The notes beneath the pieces were generated by a model. The model was not told the DNA's origin and did no database searches. It worked only from the letters and a program-made list of their open reading frames with translations. Below are positions 3,335-60,572 of a stretch of DNA of 64,000 nucleotides, one piece after another. The position numbers were made by a program, and so were the translations under genes. How positions within the stretch are numbered: position 1 is the stretch's first letter; each line of letters opens with the position of its first letter. Source of the DNA: Flavobacteriaceae bacterium (GTDB taxonomy: Bacteria; Bacteroidota; Bacteroidia; Flavobacteriales; Flavobacteriaceae); contig JABGUL010000027.1 in the NCBI GenBank assembly GCA_018646605.1, forward strand, positions 124,001 through 188,000. The letters are read 5' to 3'.

Positions 3335-3418
3335 TGCGCACGAGAAGACTCGAACTTCCACGGGAATAATCCCACCAGCCCCTCAAGCTGGCGCGTCTAC
3401 CAATTCCGCCACGTGCGC
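3335..3418 (-). tRNA. tRNA-Leu (anticodon GAG)
   Basis: An 84-nt class II tRNA reads on the minus strand. The acceptor stem GCGCACG pairs with CGTGCGC. The anticodon stem CCAGC/GCTGG holds the loop TTGAGGG, so the anticodon is GAG. A long variable arm and TTCGAGT T-loop follow. The discriminator base is A and CCA is not encoded. It lies 9 nt downstream of tRNA-Lys and is probably processed from the same transcript. Confidence 0.93.
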
Positions 3419-3427
3419 ATAGAAAAG

Positions 3428-3500
3428 TGACTTGGCTGGGGCTCGAACCCAGGACCCTCTCCTTAAAAGGGAGATGCTCTACCAACTGAGCTACCGAATC
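3428..3500 (-). tRNA. tRNA-Lys (anticodon TTT)
   Basis: A 73-nt class I tRNA reads on the minus strand. The anticodon stem TCTCC/GGAGA holds loop CTTTTAA, giving anticodon TTT. D-arm GCTCAGTTGGTAGAGC and T-arm CTGGG/CCCAG are regular. The acceptor stem GATTCGG against CCAAGTC contains one U3-G70 wobble and one C5-A68 mismatch. The discriminator is A, and CCA is not encoded. Confidence 0.93.
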
Positions 3501-52578: not shown

Positions 52579-53397
52579 ATGCAAAAATTACCCAAAATTG
52601 GATTACCTATCATTTTATTGGTAGTCGTATTACTTATTTTTATTTCTAAATCTTCCATAAACATTGGATATGGAGAAGCAGGAGTATTGTTTAAAACCTT
52701 TGGCGGCGGTGTCGTAATTGATGAGCCACCATTAGGGGAAGGATTTCATATTATTGCTCCTTGGAACAAGGTGTATATTTATAATGTGAAACAACAGGAG
52801 GTGTTTGAAAGCAAAATGCAGGTACTTTCTTCAAATGGATTAGAAATCAGTTTAGACATCTCTGTTTTGTACCAACCTACAATTCAAGATTTAGGAAAGT
52901 TACACAAGACTAAGGGAGAAAATTATTTAAATATTATCATTATTCCTCAGATTCGAGCTGTTGCTAGAAGTGTAGTGGGACGTTACACGCCAGAACAATT
53001 ATATTCTACAAAGCGTGATGCTATTCAAAATGAAATCTTTGAAGAAACACGTAAAGTAGTTGAAGGTCAATTTGTTCAACTGAATGCCGTATTAGTTAGA
53101 GATGTTACACTTCCTATCGCAATTCGTGAAGCAATTGAGCGTAAGTTGAATCAAGAGCAGGAAGCTTTAGAGTATGAATTTAGAATTGAAAAAGCAACAC
53201 AAGAAGCAGAGCGTCAGCGAATTGATGCAGAAGGGAAAGCAACAGCTAACCGTATCCTGAGTGCTTCTTTAACAGATAAAATCCTTCAGGAAAAAGGAAT
53301 TGAAGCAACGATTAAGTTGTCTGAATCTCCTAATTCTAAGGTAATTGTAATTGGTAGTGGTAAAAATGGACTTCCTATTATTTTGGGAAATCAATAA
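52579..53397 (+). CDS. Prohibitin/SPFH-domain membrane protein
   Basis: The 272-residue protein has an N-terminal membrane anchor (GLPIILLVVVLLIFIS) followed by an SPFH domain. GYGEAGVLFKTFGGG, GFHIIAPWNKVYIYNVKQQEV and LDISVLYQP are prohibitin-like. A coiled coil (about 185-235) rich in Glu, Ala and Arg follows. Such proteins form membrane rings or scaffolds, sometimes with FtsH-type proteases. It is last in the lpx-fabG run; the his leader promoter begins about 35 bp after its stop. Confidence 0.87.
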   Translation: MQKLPKIGLPIILLVVVLLIFISKSSINIGYGEAGVLFKTFGGGVVIDEPPLGEGFHIIAPWNKVYIYNVKQQEVFESKMQVLSSNGLEISLDISVLYQPTIQDLGKLHKTKGENYLNIIIIPQIRAVARSVVGRYTPEQLYSTKRDAIQNEIFEETRKVVEGQFVQLNAVLVRDVTLPIAIREAIERKLNQEQEALEYEFRIEKATQEAERQRIDAEGKATANRILSASLTDKILQEKGIEATIKLSESPNSKVIVIGSGKNGLPIILGNQ

Positions 53398-53431
53398 TTT
53401 ATTAGATGATTTTTTTTAAAAATAAAATTAA

Positions 53432-53439
53432 TATATTTG
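53432..53439 (+). promoter_or_regulatory. -7 element of the his operon promoter
   Basis: TATATTTG matches TAnnTTTG and ends 5 nt before the ATG of the leader peptide. Transcription would start at or just before that ATG, placing the whole attenuator in the leader RNA. The -33 region is only T-rich. Confidence 0.6.
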
Positions 53440-53444
53440 CACCC

Positions 53445-53498
53445 ATGCAATTAAAAAAATTAAATCATCATCATATAATAGACTCAAGCGAGTGCTAA
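53445..53498 (+). CDS. hisL: Histidine operon leader peptide (HisL-like)
   Basis: A 17-codon frame, MQLKKLNHHHIIDSSEC, holds three consecutive His codons at 53466-53474. It ends at TAA 53496-53498, 24 bp before a terminator and 92 bp before hisG. Its position, size and His run are those of a transcription-attenuation leader. Low histidyl-tRNA should stall the ribosome at the His codons. The sequence does not resemble the longer His run of the enteric HisL, so it is likely independent. Confidence 0.85.
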   Translation: MQLKKLNHHHIIDSSEC

Positions 53499-53533
53499 TG
53501 ATGTTATCTATACATTTATTAAAACCCGTTTGA
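53484..53533 (+). promoter_or_regulatory. Predicted his antiterminator pairing
   Basis: TCAAGCG at 53484-53490, inside the leader frame, can pair with CGTTTGA at 53527-53533 (7 bp, one G-U). CGTTTGA is the 5' arm of the terminator, so the two structures exclude each other. The same TCAAGCG recurs in the terminator 3' arm at 53536-53542. A ribosome finishing the leader would cover 53484-53490; one stalled at the His codons would leave it free. Confidence 0.7.
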
Positions 53534-53551
53534 TTTCAAGCGGGTTTTTTT
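53522..53551 (+). terminator. His operon attenuator (intrinsic terminator)
   Basis: A 12-bp stem pairs 53522-53533 (AAACCCGTTTGA) with 53536-53547 (TCAAGCGGGTTT) with one G-U pair and a 2-nt minimal loop. It is followed by T residues to 53551. It lies between the leader peptide and hisG. This is the only strong intrinsic terminator I see in the window. Confidence 0.85.
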
Positions 53552-53590
53552 ATTTATACCTATGCGAAAATCAAACATAAAAACAAAAAA

Positions 53591-54442
53591 ATGATTCGAA
53601 TAGCGATTCAAAAATCAGGAAGACTCAATGAGGATTCACTTCGTTTATTAAAAGATTGTGGAATTTTTATTGATAATGGAAAGGATCAGCTCAAAGCTTC
53701 AGCACGAAACTTTCCAATGGAGGTGTTTTTTCTTCGCAATGGAGACATCCCGCAATACATGAGAGATGGAGTGGTGGATATTGCCATTTTAGGGGAAAAC
53801 TTACTTATTGAAAAAGGTAATGATCTCGAGGTTGTTGAGAAACTTGGTTTTTCAAAATGCCGCGTTTCAATTGCTGTACCAAAAGGGATTAAGTTTTCAG
53901 GAATCAATGATTTGGAAGGAAAGCAAATTGCAACTTCATATCCAAACACTGTAAAGTCCTTTTTGAAAAAAAATCAAATAAATGCCAATATTCACATCAT
54001 TAATGGCTCTGTTGAGATTGCACCTAACATAGGATTAGCTGATGCAATTTGTGATATTGTTTCAAGTGGGAGCACATTATTTAAGAACAACTTAAAGGAG
54101 GTAGTTGAAATAAATACATCAGAGGCTGTTTTGGTTCAAGCCCCTAGTTTAAATCTCGAAAAACAAGCGTTGATTGAAAAGCTGAAATTCAGGATTCAAG
54201 CAGTACTTAGAGCAAAAAAATCCAAATATATTTTAATGAATCTGCCCAATGATAAAATTGATGCCATAAGTTCTATTTTACCTGTATTAAAAAGTCCAAC
54301 AGTTCTCCCTCTTGCAAAATCAGGATGGAGTTCTCTACATTCTGTAATTAATGCTGGAGATTTTTGGGAAGTCATTGATGCTCTAAAAGCTAATGGTGCA
54401 GAAGATATATTAGTGTGTCCTATTGAAAAAATGGTCTTATAA
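53591..54442 (+). CDS. hisG: ATP phosphoribosyltransferase, long form
   Basis: The 283-residue enzyme makes phosphoribosyl-ATP, the first step of histidine synthesis. It has the MIRIAIQKSGRL start and the PRPP-binding region SVEIAPNIGLADAICDIVSSGSTL near 140-163. A C-terminal regulatory domain (about 210-283) marks the long, HisZ-independent form that is usually inhibited by histidine. It is the first structural gene after the attenuator; its stop overlaps the hisD start (TAATG). Confidence 0.93.
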   Translation: MIRIAIQKSGRLNEDSLRLLKDCGIFIDNGKDQLKASARNFPMEVFFLRNGDIPQYMRDGVVDIAILGENLLIEKGNDLEVVEKLGFSKCRVSIAVPKGIKFSGINDLEGKQIATSYPNTVKSFLKKNQINANIHIINGSVEIAPNIGLADAICDIVSSGSTLFKNNLKEVVEINTSEAVLVQAPSLNLEKQALIEKLKFRIQAVLRAKKSKYILMNLPNDKIDAISSILPVLKSPTVLPLAKSGWSSLHSVINAGDFWEVIDALKANGAEDILVCPIEKMVL

Positions 54443-55734
54443 TGAAGCAAATTATTAATCCACCCCCTTCTAAATGGGAATCCCTTTTAGCACGTCCATC
54501 GGCTTCTTATGATGCATTGGAACCCATTGTGGCAAAGGTTTTTACTGCTATTGAAAGTAGAGGTGACACAGCTATTCGTGAGTTTACCGAGGAATTTGAC
54601 AAAGTTAAACTCACAGATTTTAAAGTTTCTGCCGAATCACTTGCCGCTGCAGAAGATGAGGTTTCGGCAGCATTGAAAGGAGCAATTCAGCAGGCCAAAA
54701 ACAATATATCGTGTTTTCACACTGCTCAAAAAACGGATAGAGTTTTTGTTGAAACAATGAAAGGAGTTGCTTGTTGGCAAGAAAAAAGACCCATTGAAAA
54801 AGTAGGCTTGTATATTCCAGGAGGTTCAGCCCCTTTGTTTTCGACGCTTCTAATGCTGGCTGTTCCAGCTAAAATTGCAGGGTGTAGCGAAATAGTGTTG
54901 TGCACGCCCCCCGATCAAAAGGGAGAGATTCCCGCAGTAATTCGTTATACCGCATCACTTTGTGGGATTTCACAATTATATGCTGTTGGTGGGATACAAG
55001 CCATTGCTGCAATGACTTTGGGGACTGAATCCATCCCTCAGGTATATAAAATATTTGGCCCTGGAAATCAATATGTAACCGTAGCAAAGCAATGGGCAAC
55101 ACGATTTAATGTAAGTATTGATATGCCAGCAGGCCCCAGTGAGTTACTTGTTGTTGCGGATGATTCAGCAGATCCAGATTTTATAGCGTCAGATTTACTT
55201 TCTCAAGCAGAACACGGCCCCGATAGTCAGGTTATTTTTGTAACAACAGTAATTGAAATGCTTGATAAAGTAGCTTCAGCGGTGAAAGCACAATTAGAAG
55301 TTTTGCCACGAAAAGCTATTGCTGAAAAAGCTTTAGCAAATTCAAAAATGATTTACTTTTCAGAAGAAGAGCATGCAATTCGTTATATAAACGCTTATGG
55401 CCCAGAGCACTATATTGTTTGTGTGAAGAATGAAGATCGCTATGTGTCAGGGATTCAGAATGCGGGTTCTGTATTTATAGGTAATTATACTCCTGAAAGT
55501 GCAGGAGATTATGCGTCAGGAACCAACCATACTCTTCCTACAAATGGTTATTCAAAACAATATAGTGGGGTGAATCTCGACAGTTTTTTAAAGGCAATTA
55601 CATTTCAGAAAATTTCGAAAGAAGGGATTCAGACGCTGGGAAAAACAATTGAACTAATGGCGGCTGCAGAGGGCTTGGAAGCACATAAAAATGCTGTACG
55701 AATACGGTTAAATAAAATAGCTGATGAAAATTGA
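54442..55734 (+). CDS. hisD: Histidinol dehydrogenase
   Basis: The 430-residue zinc enzyme oxidises histidinol to histidine in the last two steps. IEKVGLYIPGGSAPLFST, GPGNQYVTVAKQWA, AGPSELLVVAD, QAEHGPDSQ (zinc and catalytic residues) and TNHTLPTNGYSKQYSG (catalytic His) are intact. It overlaps hisG by 1 bp and hisC by 11 bp, so translation of the operon is tightly coupled. Confidence 0.95.
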   Translation: MKQIINPPPSKWESLLARPSASYDALEPIVAKVFTAIESRGDTAIREFTEEFDKVKLTDFKVSAESLAAAEDEVSAALKGAIQQAKNNISCFHTAQKTDRVFVETMKGVACWQEKRPIEKVGLYIPGGSAPLFSTLLMLAVPAKIAGCSEIVLCTPPDQKGEIPAVIRYTASLCGISQLYAVGGIQAIAAMTLGTESIPQVYKIFGPGNQYVTVAKQWATRFNVSIDMPAGPSELLVVADDSADPDFIASDLLSQAEHGPDSQVIFVTTVIEMLDKVASAVKAQLEVLPRKAIAEKALANSKMIYFSEEEHAIRYINAYGPEHYIVCVKNEDRYVSGIQNAGSVFIGNYTPESAGDYASGTNHTLPTNGYSKQYSGVNLDSFLKAITFQKISKEGIQTLGKTIELMAAAEGLEAHKNAVRIRLNKIADEN

Positions 55735-56770
55735 TGTAAACAAATATCTGAGAAAATCTTTGTTAGCAGTTGCACCCTACCAATCGGCGAGAGAGGAATA
55801 TGTCAATGATGGACGTAAAATGATTTTATTGGATGCCAATGAAAATCCATTTGCTACAGCTATTAATCGCTATCCAGATCCAATGCAATTGGAACTTAAA
55901 ACTCAAATAGCTGCTTGGAAGAAAGTTCCAATAAATCAAATTTACCTAAGTAACGGGAGTGATGAGTTTATTTCTCAAATCATTATGGGATGTTGCGAGC
56001 CAGGGGTGGATCATATTGTACTTGTTCCCCCTACTTTTGGAATGTACAAAGTCGCAGCAACTTTAAACGGAGTTGGGGTTGTGGAAGTTCCCCTTACTGA
56101 AGATTTTCAATTAGATGTTTCGGCCATTCTAGAAACTTCAAATGAGCAATCAAAGCTGCTATTTATACCAAATCCGAACAATCCTACTGGAAATAGTTTT
56201 AATAGAAAGGACATTAAAACACTAGTTGAGAATTTCAATGGCCTAGTGGTTTTAGATGAGGCATATGTAGAGTTTGCCGAAGCTAAATCGATTCTTCCCG
56301 AATTAGCAAAACATCCAAACTTGATGGTTTGTCAAACTTTATCTAAGGCACAAGGAATGGCTGGAGTTCGATTGGGTATGGCATTTGCTCATGCAGAGTT
56401 GATTCTTTTCTTGAATAAGATAAAAGCACCTTACAATATCAATTCATTAACCCTGAAAGCAGTATTGCAAAAACTTAAAGAGCAGGAACTTGTAAAAGAA
56501 CAAGTGGTTTATTTGCTTAAAGAACGCAAACGCCTTGAGGCTTCGTTTAAAGAATTGGATTGGATAATAACGTGTTTTCCTTCGGATGCTAATTTTATAC
56601 TAATACGAGTAGATGATAGCGCTCTCCGCTATGCTCAGCTTATTGAGGCTGGGATAGTTGTTAGAAATTCATCAAACAGTTTGGGATGTGAAAATACCCT
56701 TAGAATCTCTGTGGGGACTCAAGAAGAAAACAATATTTTAATAAATGTTTTACAGACACTAGAGGCTTAA
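55724..56770 (+). CDS. hisC: Histidinol-phosphate aminotransferase
   Basis: The 348-residue PLP enzyme transfers an amino group from glutamate to imidazole acetol phosphate. LDANENPFA opens the fold, SNGSDEFI binds the PLP phosphate, NPNNPTGN and [11 protein letters not shown] hold the PLP contacts, and [16 protein letters not shown] carries the PLP Lys near residue 207. It overlaps hisD by 11 bp and is followed after 2 bp by hisB. Homologous phenylalanine aminotransferases are excluded by the operon context. Confidence 0.94.
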
Positions 56771-56772
56771 AT

Positions 56773-57900
56773 ATGAAGAAAGTTTTATTTATAGATCGGG
56801 ACGGAACACTCGCCTTAGAACCAGACGATTATCAGTTGGATGCTTTTGATAAACTGATGTTTTATCCACAGGTATTTACTTATTTAGGTAAAATAGCTAA
56901 AGAATTAGACTATACACTAGTGATGGTTACCAATCAAGATGGTTTGGGAACAGATAGTTTTCCTGAGGAAACCTTTTGGCCAGTACATACGTTACTTTTA
57001 AAAACGTTTGAACAAGAAGGAATTATTTTTGAAGAAGTATTGATCGATAGAAGCTTTCCCAAAGATAATGCGCCCACGCGGAAACCCAGAACGGGAATGC
57101 TCACGAAATATTTAAATCCTAGGGAGTATGATTTAGCCAATTCATATGTAATAGGCGACCGTTTAACGGACATGGAGTTAGCCAAGAACCTAAAAACTAA
57201 GGGTATTTTTATCGCAAATGATGAGGTTTTGGGCATGGAGGAGGTTTCGGGTGATTTGAATGGGTTTGTTTCCTTAAAAACGGTCTCTTGGGAAGCGATC
57301 TACCATTTTTTAAAATTAGAACAACGCATTACCATCCAAAAAAGAACCACCAATGAGACTGATATTCAACTAAGTTTAAACCTTGACGGATCCGGTAAAA
57401 GTGAAATTTCAACTGGAATTGAGTTTTTTGATCATATGTTAGATCAGTTGGCGCGTCACGGAGGTATGGATATTTCACTTCAAGTAAAAGGTGATTTAGA
57501 GGTGGATGAGCACCATACAATAGAGGACACTGCTATAGTCCTGGGTGAAGCCTTTTCTATGGCCTTAGGAAACAAACTTGGGATAGAGCGTTATGGCTTT
57601 TGTTTGCCCATGGATGATTGTTTGGCACAGGTCGCAATTGATTTTGGTGGACGTAACTGGTTGGTGTGGGATGCAGAATTTAAGCGTGAGATGATTGGAA
57701 AAATGCCCACGGAAATGTTTTTACATTTTTTTAAATCATTTTCAGATGGAGCAAAGGCAAATTTGAATATCAAAGCGAGCGGAACAAATGAACATCACAA
57801 AATAGAAGCTATTTTTAAATCGTTTGCTAAAGCGATAAAAGTAGCTGTCAAACGTGATCCAGATAAAATGATCCTCCCATCAACCAAGGGAAGCCTGTAG
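56773..57900 (+). CDS. hisB: Bifunctional histidinol-phosphatase / IGP dehydratase
   Basis: The 375-residue protein fuses two steps. Residues 1 to about 165 are a HAD phosphatase ([12 protein letters not shown] with nucleophile Asp, [24 protein letters not shown]). Residues about 185-375 are imidazoleglycerol-phosphate dehydratase, with [15 protein letters not shown] and [14 protein letters not shown] as manganese-binding His clusters and [14 protein letters not shown] at the end. The fused form occurs in enterics and Bacteroidota. A zinc loop of the enteric phosphatase appears reduced here. Confidence 0.94.
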
Positions 57901-57901
57901 C

Positions 57902-58489
57902 ATGAAAATAGCAATTATTGATTATGGAGCTGGTAATATCAGAAGTTTGCAATTTGCACTTGAACGCTTGGGTGTGGTTGGTGAATTGACTTCAGATCCA
58001 GAGCTGATTACAAAAGCGGATAAAGTTATTTTTCCGGGTCAAGGGGCTGCTAAAAGTGCAATGTTAAAGTTAAAAGCCCACGGTCTTGATCTTTTAATCC
58101 CCCAATTAAAGCAACCTGTATTGGGGATCTGTTTGGGGATGCAATTGTTATGTGATTATTCAGAAGAAGGGGGTGTTAAGGGATTAGGAATTATTGAAGG
58201 TAAGGTGCGTCGGTTTTCAGATAGAGTAAAAGTTCCACAAATGGGTTGGAATAAAATTTCAAAAACTCAAACGGCTCTCTTTCAGAGTATTAACGAGGAT
58301 GAGTTCATGTATTTAGTTCACTCATATTTTGTTCCTATTTTGCCGGAAACTATTGCAATCAGTACTTATGACACACCCTATAGTGTGGCGCTAAATAAAG
58401 ATAATTTTTATGGTGTACAATTTCACCCAGAGAAGAGCAGTAAGCCAGGACAAAAATTGCTTCAAAACTTTTTAAATCTTACTGTATGA
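57902..58489 (+). CDS. hisH: Imidazole glycerol-phosphate synthase, glutaminase subunit
   Basis: The 195-residue class I glutamine amidotransferase supplies ammonia to His[19 protein letters not shown] opens the protein. [21 protein letters not shown] (nucleophile Cys near residue 78) and QFHPEKSS (catalytic His and Glu) are intact. It starts 1 bp after hisB and overlaps hisA by 4 bp, as expected for a subunit made in stoichiometry with HisF. Confidence 0.95.
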
Positions 58490-59214
58490 GAATAATTCCA
58501 GCAATTGATCTTATTGAGGGTAAATGTGTTCGCCTTTCCAAAGGAGATTACAGTACCCAAAAAATATATAACGAAAGCCCATTAGAGGTGGCCAAAGCTT
58601 TTGAGGCTCATGGAATTGACCATCTACATTTAGTAGACCTTGATGGCGCTAAATCAAAACACATAGTCAATCACAAAGTACTGGAGACTATCGCTTCTAA
58701 AACGTCTCTTAAAATTGATTTTGGAGGGGGTCTTAAGACAAATGAAGATCTAAAAATTGCATTTGAATGTGGTGCCCAACAAATTACAGGAGGAAGTATT
58801 GCTGTTAAAGCGCCTGCTCTTTTTGAAGAATGGATCCGCATTTACGGGAGCGAAAGAATTATTTTAGGTGCAGACTTTCAGGATGATTTCATTGCAACCG
58901 ATGGATGGTTAGAGACTTCCAGCCATCACTTGATCGATTTTGTAGCGGCCTATCAGAACAAAGGAATTCAATATGTAATTTGCACAGACATTAGCAAAGA
59001 TGGGATGTTGCAAGGGCCTTCTTTCAAGGTTTATAAGGATTTATTGAAAAAACAACCGAACATAAAATTAATTGCTTCTGGCGGTATTTCAACCTTTGAG
59101 GAACTTCCTAAACTAGCAGCAATGGGTTGTGAGGGAACTATCATTGGAAAAGCGATTTACGAGAATAAAATCAGTATGAAAGAATTAGAAGATTATATCA
59201 TTAACTCAAACTAA
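58486..59214 (+). CDS. hisA: ProFAR isomerase
   Basis: The 242-residue beta-alpha barrel opens the ribose ring of ProFAR by an Amadori rearrangement. [19 protein letters not shown] carries the catalytic Asp (D8). Phosphate-binding loops are FGGGLKT and [12 protein letters not shown], and [13 protein letters not shown] holds the second catalytic Asp. It overlaps hisH by 4 bp. Half-barrel symmetry with HisF is evident. Confidence 0.94.
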
Positions 59215-59215
59215 T

Positions 59216-59971
59216 ATGCTAACTAAACGTATCATTCCTTGTTTAGACATTAAAGACGGTAGAACTGTCAAGGGGATTAATTTTGTTAATCTTCGAGATG
59301 CTGGTGATCCGGTGGAGCTAGCGCGTCAATATGCCGATCAAAACGCTGATGAATTGGTTTTTTTGGATATTTCAGCAACGGAACAGAAGCGGAAAACTTT
59401 AGCCGATTTAGTTTTAAAAGTAGCCGCAGCAATTGATATTCCCTTTACGGTGGGAGGAGGTATTTCTTCTGTAGATGATGTTGCAATCCTCTTACAAAAT
59501 GGAGCAGATAAGGTTTCAATCAACTCGGCGGCAGTAAAAAACCCAGAATTAATCAATGAATGTGCAGCGCAATTTGGGAGTCAATGTATTGTGATTGCCA
59601 TTGATGCAAAGAAAATAAACAACCAATGGAAGGTACATTTAGTAGGGGGTAAAGTGCCTACTGAACTGGACTTGTTTGATTGGGCAAAAGAAGTTGCTCA
59701 ACGTGGTGCGGGAGAGATTCTGTTTACCTCTATGGACCATGACGGAACTAAAGGGGGATTTGCCAATGCTGCATTAGCCCGATTATCTGATGAAGTGAAT
59801 ATCCCCATCATTGCCTCAGGAGGTGCGGGTGATATCAATCATTTTGTTGATACCTTTACCCTTGGAAAAGCAGATGCTGCTTTGGCAGCAAGTATTTTTC
59901 ATTTTGGTGAGATCTTAATCCCCGAACTCAAACAAAAGCTTAAACAACAAGATATAGCGATACGAATTTAA
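59216..59971 (+). CDS. hisF: Imidazole glycerol-phosphate synthase, cyclase subunit
   Basis: The 251-residue barrel uses ammonia from HisH to form IGP and [24 protein letters not shown] contains catalytic Asp (D11). [12 protein letters not shown] and [12 protein letters not shown] are phosphate loops, and [12 protein letters not shown] holds the second Asp. It follows hisA after 1 bp. AICAR links the pathway to purine synthesis. Confidence 0.95.
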
Positions 59972-59972
59972 T

Positions 59973-60572
59973 ATGACGACACTTAATTTTTCAAAATCAA
60001 CCGACGGTTTACTTCCCGCAATTATTCAGGATGTTAACACAAAAAATGTTTTGATGTTGGGGTACATGAACCAAGAAGCCTTGACTAAAACGCAAGAAAC
60101 AGGAAAAGTAACTTTCTTTAGTAGAAGTAAAAACCGCCTTTGGACAAAAGGGGAGGAGAGTGGTAATTTCCTTCATTTTGTGAGTCTTAAAGAAGATTGC
60201 GACCAAGACACCCTCCTGATTCAAGTAAAGCCACATGGGCCCACATGTCACAAAGGAACGGATACGTGCTGGAATACTACTAACGACGTTAGTTTTGGAT
60301 TTTTAAGTCAATTGGAGACAACCATAAAATCACGTAGAGAAGAGGATAGTGATACGAGTTATGTTGCTTCATTGTTTAGAAAAGGAATCAATAAAATTGC
60401 TCAAAAAGTAGGAGAGGAAGCTGTAGAGACTGTTATTGAGGCTAAAGATGATAGCGAAGAATTGTTTCTCGATGAAAGTGCCGATTTATTGTTTCACTAT
60501 TTGATTTTACTTCAAGCAAAAGGGTATTCCTTGAAAGACATTTCTCGAGTATTAGAATTGAGGAGTAACTAA
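59973..60572 (+). CDS. hisIE: Bifunctional phosphoribosyl-AMP cyclohydrolase / phosphoribosyl-ATP pyrophosphatase
   Basis: The 199-residue fusion joins HisI (1 to about 105) and HisE (about 108-199). HisI has MLGYMNQEALTKTQETG and the zinc motif HGPTCHKGTDTCW. HisE has KVGEEAVETVIEAKDDSEEL, the Mg-binding Glu-rich helix. The two remove pyrophosphate from PR-ATP and open the purine ring. It is the last gene of the operon, which is therefore complete for the pathway from PRPP and ATP to histidine. Confidence 0.94.
   Translation: MTTLNFSKSTDGLLPAIIQDVNTKNVLMLGYMNQEALTKTQETGKVTFFSRSKNRLWTKGEESGNFLHFVSLKEDCDQDTLLIQVKPHGPTCHKGTDTCWNTTNDVSFGFLSQLETTIKSRREEDSDTSYVASLFRKGINKIAQKVGEEAVETVIEAKDDSEELFLDESADLLFHYLILLQAKGYSLKDISRVLELRSN

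Follow-up and report, generated by a model that had tools for sequence, protein, structure and literature searches.

The his operon of this flavobacterium is very probably controlled by a ribosome-mediated transcription attenuator, whose terminator 5' arm very probably also pairs with an additional element, F. Comparison of related genomes establishes, at the level of sequence, the leader and the pairings predicted between its arms (terminator D:E, antiterminator B:D, hairpin A:C, and D:F), from which we infer the switching itself, the response to histidine and the role of F.

The leader and the operon belong to a marine flavobacterium, and both are on the + strand of the window, i.e. the whole stretch of 64,000 nucleotides that was analysed. 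The −7 promoter box, TATATTTG (53432–53439), is of the TANNTTTG type, whose consensus and spacing are published (PMC6847099, PMC9723704). It is followed by a leader peptide ORF of 17 codons, MQLKKLNHHHIIDSSEC (53445–53498), which starts with the ATG at 53445, ends with the stop codon TAA at 53496–53498 and contains three consecutive His codons, CAT CAT CAT (53466–53474). Part of these codons doubles as arm A of a putative pause or sequestering hairpin, the other strand of which is arm C, ATGATG (53498–53503). According to the minimum free energy (MFE) fold and to pairing energies, arm B, TCAAGCG (53484–53490), sits in the loop of this A:C hairpin. Arm B is the candidate antiterminator strand, based on pairing counts, covariation and an energy test, and its possible partner is at 53527–53533, in arm D (53521–53533). 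The latter is the 5' arm of the terminator and could pair with B, E or F (MFE fold, D:E covariation). Arm E, the 3' arm (53537–53548), makes up with a run of seven T (53545–53551) the segment 53537–53551, and the terminator D:E, read directly and predicted by RNAfold, spans 53521–53548.

Element F, AAATCAAAC (53568–53576), is located between the terminator and hisG, 14 nt from the hisG start codon. It is complementary to the terminator 5' arm and loop (53528–53536), with which it would form a duplex of 9 bp (−9.2 kcal/mol) in the window. The first gene of the operon, hisG (53591–54442), scores over the cut-offs of TIGR00070 and TIGR03455; hisD, hisC, hisNB (encoding a bifunctional HisB), hisH, hisA, hisF and hisIE follow (54442–60572), each recognised above the cut-off of an appropriate NCBIfam model, and the order after the leader is hisGDC(NB)HAF(IE).

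The box, the 17-codon leader and the three His codons had been pointed out in a first-pass annotation, and all are read directly in the DNA. The same annotation described a 12-bp terminator with a T-run. Indeed, the structure predicted by RNAfold for the leader of the window (−26.2 kcal/mol, z −3.94, none of 200 shuffles being as good) consists of a 12-bp D:E stem, which ends in the seven T, and of the A:C hairpin. A pause hairpin between the His codons and ATGATG had also been proposed; the energies of A:C given below support it, but its register was off by one, the MFE fold pairing the second and third His codons (53469–53474) with 53498–53503. No match to the Rfam His_leader (RF00514) or to a T-box was found at the gathering threshold in the whole window, or at E values up to 10 in the region 53300–53700. 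The matches to PyrR, the L10 leader, the Trp leader and other families that appear in this region at E values up to 10 are far under their gathering scores, and were taken as terminator look-alikes. Rfam also locates two neighbouring tRNA genes at 3335–3500 of the window, on the − strand.

A search for hisG in 38 genomes from the genus of the window gave 35 with the gene, whose upstream regions were all read. All 35 regions encode a leader of 17–19 codons with at least two His codons, followed by a terminator; at least three His are present in 34 of them, and two only in L011. The absence of the His codons or of the terminator arms from close relatives, which the first-pass annotation had named as evidence against an attenuator, is thus seen in none of these regions, which all have the box, the His leader and the terminator. 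In the rest of the family, hisG was found in 127 of the 149 genomes drawn, and 124 of the 125 new upstream regions were read (L156, in which the script recognised no start, was left out). A script annotated 155 of the 159 genus and family regions, those dropped (L038, L116, L136 and L143) having no recognised terminator. A leader with at least two His is present in all 155, with at least three in 150, and it is 17–19 residues long in 146. When a His-rich ORF is defined by at least three His within six residues, it is found upstream of hisG in 34/35 regions of the genus and 119/124 of the family. The reverse strand gives 0 and 2 such ORFs, and shuffled sequences 0.1 and 0.9, respectively.

The sequence TCAAGCG had been proposed as an antiterminator strand directed against the terminator 5' arm, and it is conserved as such: over the 155 regions, B and D are complementary at 8/8 positions in 103 cases, at 7/8 in 48 and at 6/8 in 4. 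The pairing predicted in the window has 7 bp, one of which is G-U. With B defined by its position, as the last 15 nt at the end of the leader ORF, the mean B:D energy is −10.4 kcal/mol, compared to −3.9 with shuffled sequences and −2.6 with codons 2–6. Swapping D between genomes barely shifts this energy (−9.7 kcal/mol), because D varies little. When it does vary, B follows: a U-to-C change in D is accompanied by a G in B in 10/10 genomes, against 31/135 where the change is absent (10 of the 155 were set aside, and kinship is uncorrected). His leaders are therefore kept among relatives and their arms B and D change together, as an alignment of related leaders was expected to reveal. The codons of B read SNE in the genus of the window (SSE in the window itself) and QA[RSKN] in most of the family, and the frame in which B starts is 1 in 115 regions, 2 in 38 and 0 in 2. 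Since the motif is read in different frames, it is the RNA and not the peptide that is conserved, and these two reading frames rule out conservation of the B motif at the peptide level.

The mean A:C energy over the 155 regions is −11.3 kcal/mol for cognate arms, −8.1 for swapped and −5.3 for shuffled ones, and the D:E covariation score is 0.171, compared to 0.113 after shuffling. In 144/155 regions, B starts 19–25 nt beyond the first His codon, counted from the end of this codon, and in 134/155 its start is 11 or 13 nt 5' of the leader stop. With the usual ribosome footprint, such spacings leave B free when the ribosome stalls on the His codons, and covered when it is at the stop codon. The exposure of B on stalling and its masking at the stop codon, both proposed from the window, fit this spacing, but the gap between the last His codon and B is 9 nt rather than 10. 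Judged in this way, the region is what is expected of an attenuator, with a His-rich ORF, an intrinsic terminator between this ORF and hisG, a covarying antiterminator that would exclude the terminator, and a suitable spacing of the arms.

Two details of arm B can be mentioned. In some members of the family (L050, L281 and L292, with Kriegella aquimaris and Maribacter stanieri among those that have a name), the leader stop codon is within arm B (CTTAGGCG), and the peptide is shortened while the RNA arm is retained. In the window, the CTC and GAG that flank B (53479–53497) can make a small hairpin of their own, which is not found in every relative; it might keep B closed without translation.

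His leaders are also found beyond the family. The other families of the order provided 26 genomes with hisG, of which 23 upstream regions were read; a His-rich leader precedes hisG in 20 of these and in 30 of the 35 regions that represent other orders of the class, the reverse strand giving 1 and 0 and shuffled sequences 0.0 and 0.7, respectively. A terminator accompanies the His ORF in 49 of these 58 regions outside the family. The best antiterminator in these has a mean energy of −9.4 kcal/mol, compared to −6.3 for shuffled sequences, and exceeds the shuffled mean by at least 3 kcal/mol in 23/49. His leaders thus look class-wide, and the full antiterminator, as judged from its predicted pairing, is well supported for the family only. 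This spread and element F (53568–53576) both go beyond the first-pass annotation. Among named hisG loci, which are not independent of the other samples, 67 of 80 pass the His-rich rule, including those of Kordia, Maribacter and Flagellimonas; in most of the 13 misses, inspection by eye shows His codons that are fewer or spaced apart, or GTG as the start codon.

The three misses in the other families of the order (L180, L217 and L218) all belong to one family (f15), with genomes about 0.6 Mb in size; they have a terminator just 5' of hisG and no His-rich ORF, and the attenuator has perhaps decayed to a constant terminator in these reduced genomes. Several of the loci L174–L199, mostly from other orders, share a GGCTTACC..GGTAAGCC type of terminator, unlike the flavobacterial CCCGTTTGA..TCAAACGGG. 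In the genome of the window, an apparently similar leader is found upstream of a trpE-like gene (locus L220; PF04715, contig C10, near 158770). In it, 5 nt separate TATATTTG from MNRTIIFLSWWHMNNNRYS, which has two Trp codons side by side; a terminator is directly 5' of the gene. Inspection by eye of this trpE-like leader revealed no obvious B-type arm or F, and no leader was seen by eye upstream of ilvD in the same genome.

The TANNTTTG box is 5–8 nt 5' of the leader ATG in the 35 regions of the genus. In Flavobacterium johnsoniae, transcription is reported to start 4–5 nt from the −7 element (PMC6847099), and in F. psychrophilum the promoter box is placed at −12 to −5 (PMC9723704). On the basis of this published spacing, the transcription start site of the window is predicted at 53444 or 53445, which corresponds to a 5' UTR of 0–1 nt, and the 5' UTR predicted across the genus is 0–4 nt. 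The leader ORF of the window is probably leaderless, or nearly so. That it may be leaderless had already been suggested; the idea agrees with the published promoter spacing, the start site itself being a prediction. In the rest of the family, the TTTG nearest to the leader ATG is most frequently 17–19 nt away (53/120), and 4–11 nt away in 23/120. Leaderless mRNAs are described as a minority in flavobacteria: they amount to 5.5% in F. psychrophilum (PMC9723704), and 87% of the F. johnsoniae transcripts with a probable promoter are given leaders of more than 10 nt (PMC6847099). If the leader ORF is indeed leaderless, the timing of the switch would be set by initiation at a bare 5' end.

The evidence for a third partner of arm D comes from the comparison of D with the sequence upstream of hisG. 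The mean energy of the D:F duplex is −10.7 kcal/mol; it falls to −4.4 when the sequence is shuffled, and to −7.4 when it is taken from other genomes. The cognate duplex is better than the swapped mean in 88/128 only; this advantage is modest because relatives share F. Against circularity, F was also chosen on the six-base core of D alone, in the 110 regions where 30 nt or more are available for it. The core is matched at 6/6 positions in 89 of them, compared to a mean of 27.6 and a maximum of 38 with shuffled sequences, which also give core matches, so that part of the 89 sites may be due to chance. The loop positions, which were not used in choosing F, are complementary to it in 358 of 422 cases (85%); permuting the loops lowers this to 65% (0/2000 permutations are as high) and shuffling to 37% (0/500).

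The covariation of D and F was examined in an alignment of 77 sequences, 12 of the 89 having been dropped on length or identity. Standard pairs occupy 93.2% of the cells, compared to 82.3% after shuffling (kinship is uncorrected), and the covariation score is 0.357, compared to 0.197 for shuffled alignments (0/500) and at most 0.100 when the strands are slid by 1–3 columns. The six core columns are biased, since the choice of F was made on them; the loop columns 14–19 played no part in it and contain 97 of the 108 two-sided changes. The position of F is also constrained: its end is 12–17 nt 5' of the hisG start in 62/89 regions by the core rule (ties being broken towards 14 nt), and in 61/81 when F is chosen by duplex energy, without distance preference. 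These results suggest that D:F is a new third pairing, made by an arm beside the hisG start. A literature search restricted to papers outside subscription found no prior description of F. The hypothesis that F is a copy of E or B was ruled out, the 5' part of F being the complement of the terminator loop and not a repeat. A general role of F as a strand that sequesters the start codon was not upheld either: it pairs with the hisG start region at −8 kcal/mol or better in 30/81 only, and cognate F does so more than swapped F in 41/81 only.

In the other families of the order, F is clear, with differing sequences, in 13 of the 23 regions (L161–L173; in L172 the terminator is quite different), weaker in L177, and not seen in the other 9. 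Outside the order, L202 alone shows a clear F, with a flavobacterial-type terminator; as the genome is listed with 5% contamination, a stray contig and a transfer of the operon are equally likely. In the genus of the window, 7 of 35 members have room for F; six of these (L001–L006) pass the core rule, and in the seventh (L020), which fails it, a looser duplex of −8.9 kcal/mol is present. Attenuation therefore does not need F, since 28 of the 35 have no room for it and L020 fails the core rule.

The energies of the competing states were compared by forcing each pairing in the 89 regions with F. The more stable state is D:E rather than D:F in 86, and D:F rather than B:D in 78. Compared to D:E, the D:F state raises the modelled accessibility of the hisG AUG in 66 regions and lowers it in 12; B:D raises it in 9 and lowers it in 31. 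In the window, D:F hardly alters this accessibility (0.71 vs 0.69). Equilibrium folding of the short leaders gives D:E in 155/155, both for free RNA and with a ribosome modelled at the His codons or at the stop codon, and B:D is never favoured. With the full-length RNA and no ribosome, D:E is obtained in 151, D:F in 3 and B:D in 0 of the 155, and a modelled ribosome on the His codons favours B:D in 4 of 155. Equilibrium folding with a modelled ribosome therefore reveals no switch, and was discarded as a demonstration of it. Since B:D is never favoured at equilibrium in the short leader, the switch must be kinetic, if it operates. Known attenuators also switch kinetically.

The following sequence of events can be proposed. 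RNA polymerase would start at or beside the AUG of the leader. With little charged His-tRNA available, the leading ribosome would stall on the His codons, which would break A:C and free B; B would then capture D before E is made, and the polymerase would read through. When histidine is plentiful, the ribosome would reach the stop codon and cover B, and D:E would terminate transcription. In the absence of a ribosome, A:C and D:E would form together, because B sits in the A:C loop and would be kept there. F may then act as a latch: the loop bases that are unpaired in B:D would be a toehold, and F would take D from B once it is made. The antiterminated mRNA would end as D:F, with the hisG start open, and leaky transcripts would stay in D:E. 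The relay from B:D to D:F is deduced from the forced-state energies and the modelled accessibility of the start. The resulting three-way switch of D between B:D, D:E and D:F would couple premature termination to hisG translation, the latch remembering antitermination; this model is put forward tentatively, its probability being somewhat short of even.

F could also have the opposite sign. In that case D:F would sequester the start region and lower the translation of hisG in leaky mRNA, and B:D would prevent this in starvation, a single arm controlling termination and translation together. This would fit the clustering of the end of F at 12–17 nt from the start codon (61/81), which puts F inside the −20 to +20 zone around the start, described as generally low in pairing in F. 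johnsoniae (PMC6847099); D:E itself lies at a like distance from hisG in the genus members that lack room for F (28 of 35), and sequestration of ribosome binding sites by attenuators is known (PMC9413887). However, D:F would be rare unless B:D came first, considering that D:E is the more stable in 86/89, and as F is a stronger partner than B in 78/89, it would presumably silence the very mRNA made in starvation. We regard this interpretation as rather doubtful.

That the complementarity to F extends through the loop, the accessible part of the terminated leader RNA, is also what would be expected if this RNA acted in trans, through its exposed loop, on the F of the full-length mRNA, or if D:F served in protection or processing of the mRNA. 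A leader product acting in trans has been reported, namely the trp leader peptide of Sinorhizobium (PMC7298713). However, the clustered spacing between F and the start points to initiation, and pairing in cis requires no added assumption, which makes such a role unlikely. It is equally improbable that the upstream arms attenuate alone, F being a relic devoid of a present role in the organism of the window. The F of the window has indeed only 9 bp and leaves the modelled accessibility of the start unchanged, and 28 of 35 genus members lack room for F. On the other hand, the AA beside its core fits the TT of its own loop, and in the same way the AGT of L002, L003, L005 and L006 fits their own ATT loops, L004 fitting at 2/3 positions. 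Finally, a His-rich ORF arising by chance next to a terminator that merely closes the upstream gene, for which nothing pleads beyond the AT-richness of the sequence, has a negligible probability and is ruled out by conservation and by the shuffled and reverse-strand controls.

Amino-acid attenuation is the textbook example of transcription–translation coupling, and is known mainly from proteobacteria. In the his attenuator of enterobacteria, a leader with His codons, a pause hairpin, an antiterminator and an intrinsic terminator precede hisG, and the signal is the position of the ribosome. The leader described here shares these elements with the enterobacterial one (RF00514). It differs from it by the position of B inside the A:C loop, whereas the enterobacterial arms form a simple chain of neighbours, by its leader ORF, which is probably leaderless, and by the third partner of D beside the hisG start. 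Leaderless leader peptides are known in Actinobacteria, such as that of ilvBNC in Corynebacterium, whose ORF begins at or near the 5' end of the transcript; the likeness is in this position, and the difference is that leaderless mRNAs are a minority in flavobacteria. Attenuators are reportedly also the subject of older comparative work by Vitreschak and colleagues.

A study of his regulation in Gram-positive bacteria outlines the attenuator scheme and names his attenuators in Proteobacteria and some Firmicutes (PMC9413887). The attenuators that it proposes in Firmicutes, in 17 genomes from three lineages, resemble the present one in having a His-rich leader peptide and alternative terminator and antiterminator hairpins (PMC9413887); here, His leaders are found in 30/35 and 20/23 distant regions, and F in the order. 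The string "Bacteroid" is absent from the main text of that article. The RBS-sequestering attenuators that it mentions would be similar in that stalling on the leader peptide decides whether the downstream start is open (PMC9413887), whereas here the intrinsic terminator and the arm close to the start would share strand D. In Bacteroidota, the description of his genes in PMC8305728 mentions attenuation for enterobacteria only, and short ORFs that recall leader peptides are described in some long 5' UTRs of Bacteroides thetaiotaomicron (PMC7366714). The transcriptome study of F. psychrophilum speaks of strong clues to attenuation by leader peptides 5' of operons for amino-acid biosynthesis (PMC9723704), and is the sole direct precedent found for this type of regulation in a flavobacterium; the account given there describes no third arm, and the word "Histidine" is absent from its main text.

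If D:F is functional, one switch rules both termination and translation, and if it works as a latch, full translation would be reserved for transcripts that went through a ribosome stall. Such a double lock would be common across Flavobacteriales and would operate with ribosomes that, in Bacteroidota, do without Shine-Dalgarno pairing; in the genus of the window, the leader ORF involved would be leaderless or nearly so. That most of the Bacteroidia examined have His leaders suggests that ribosomes closely trail the polymerase in this group, the mRNAs of which are devoid of Shine-Dalgarno sites, and these leaders would be a ready reporter for transcription–translation coupling.
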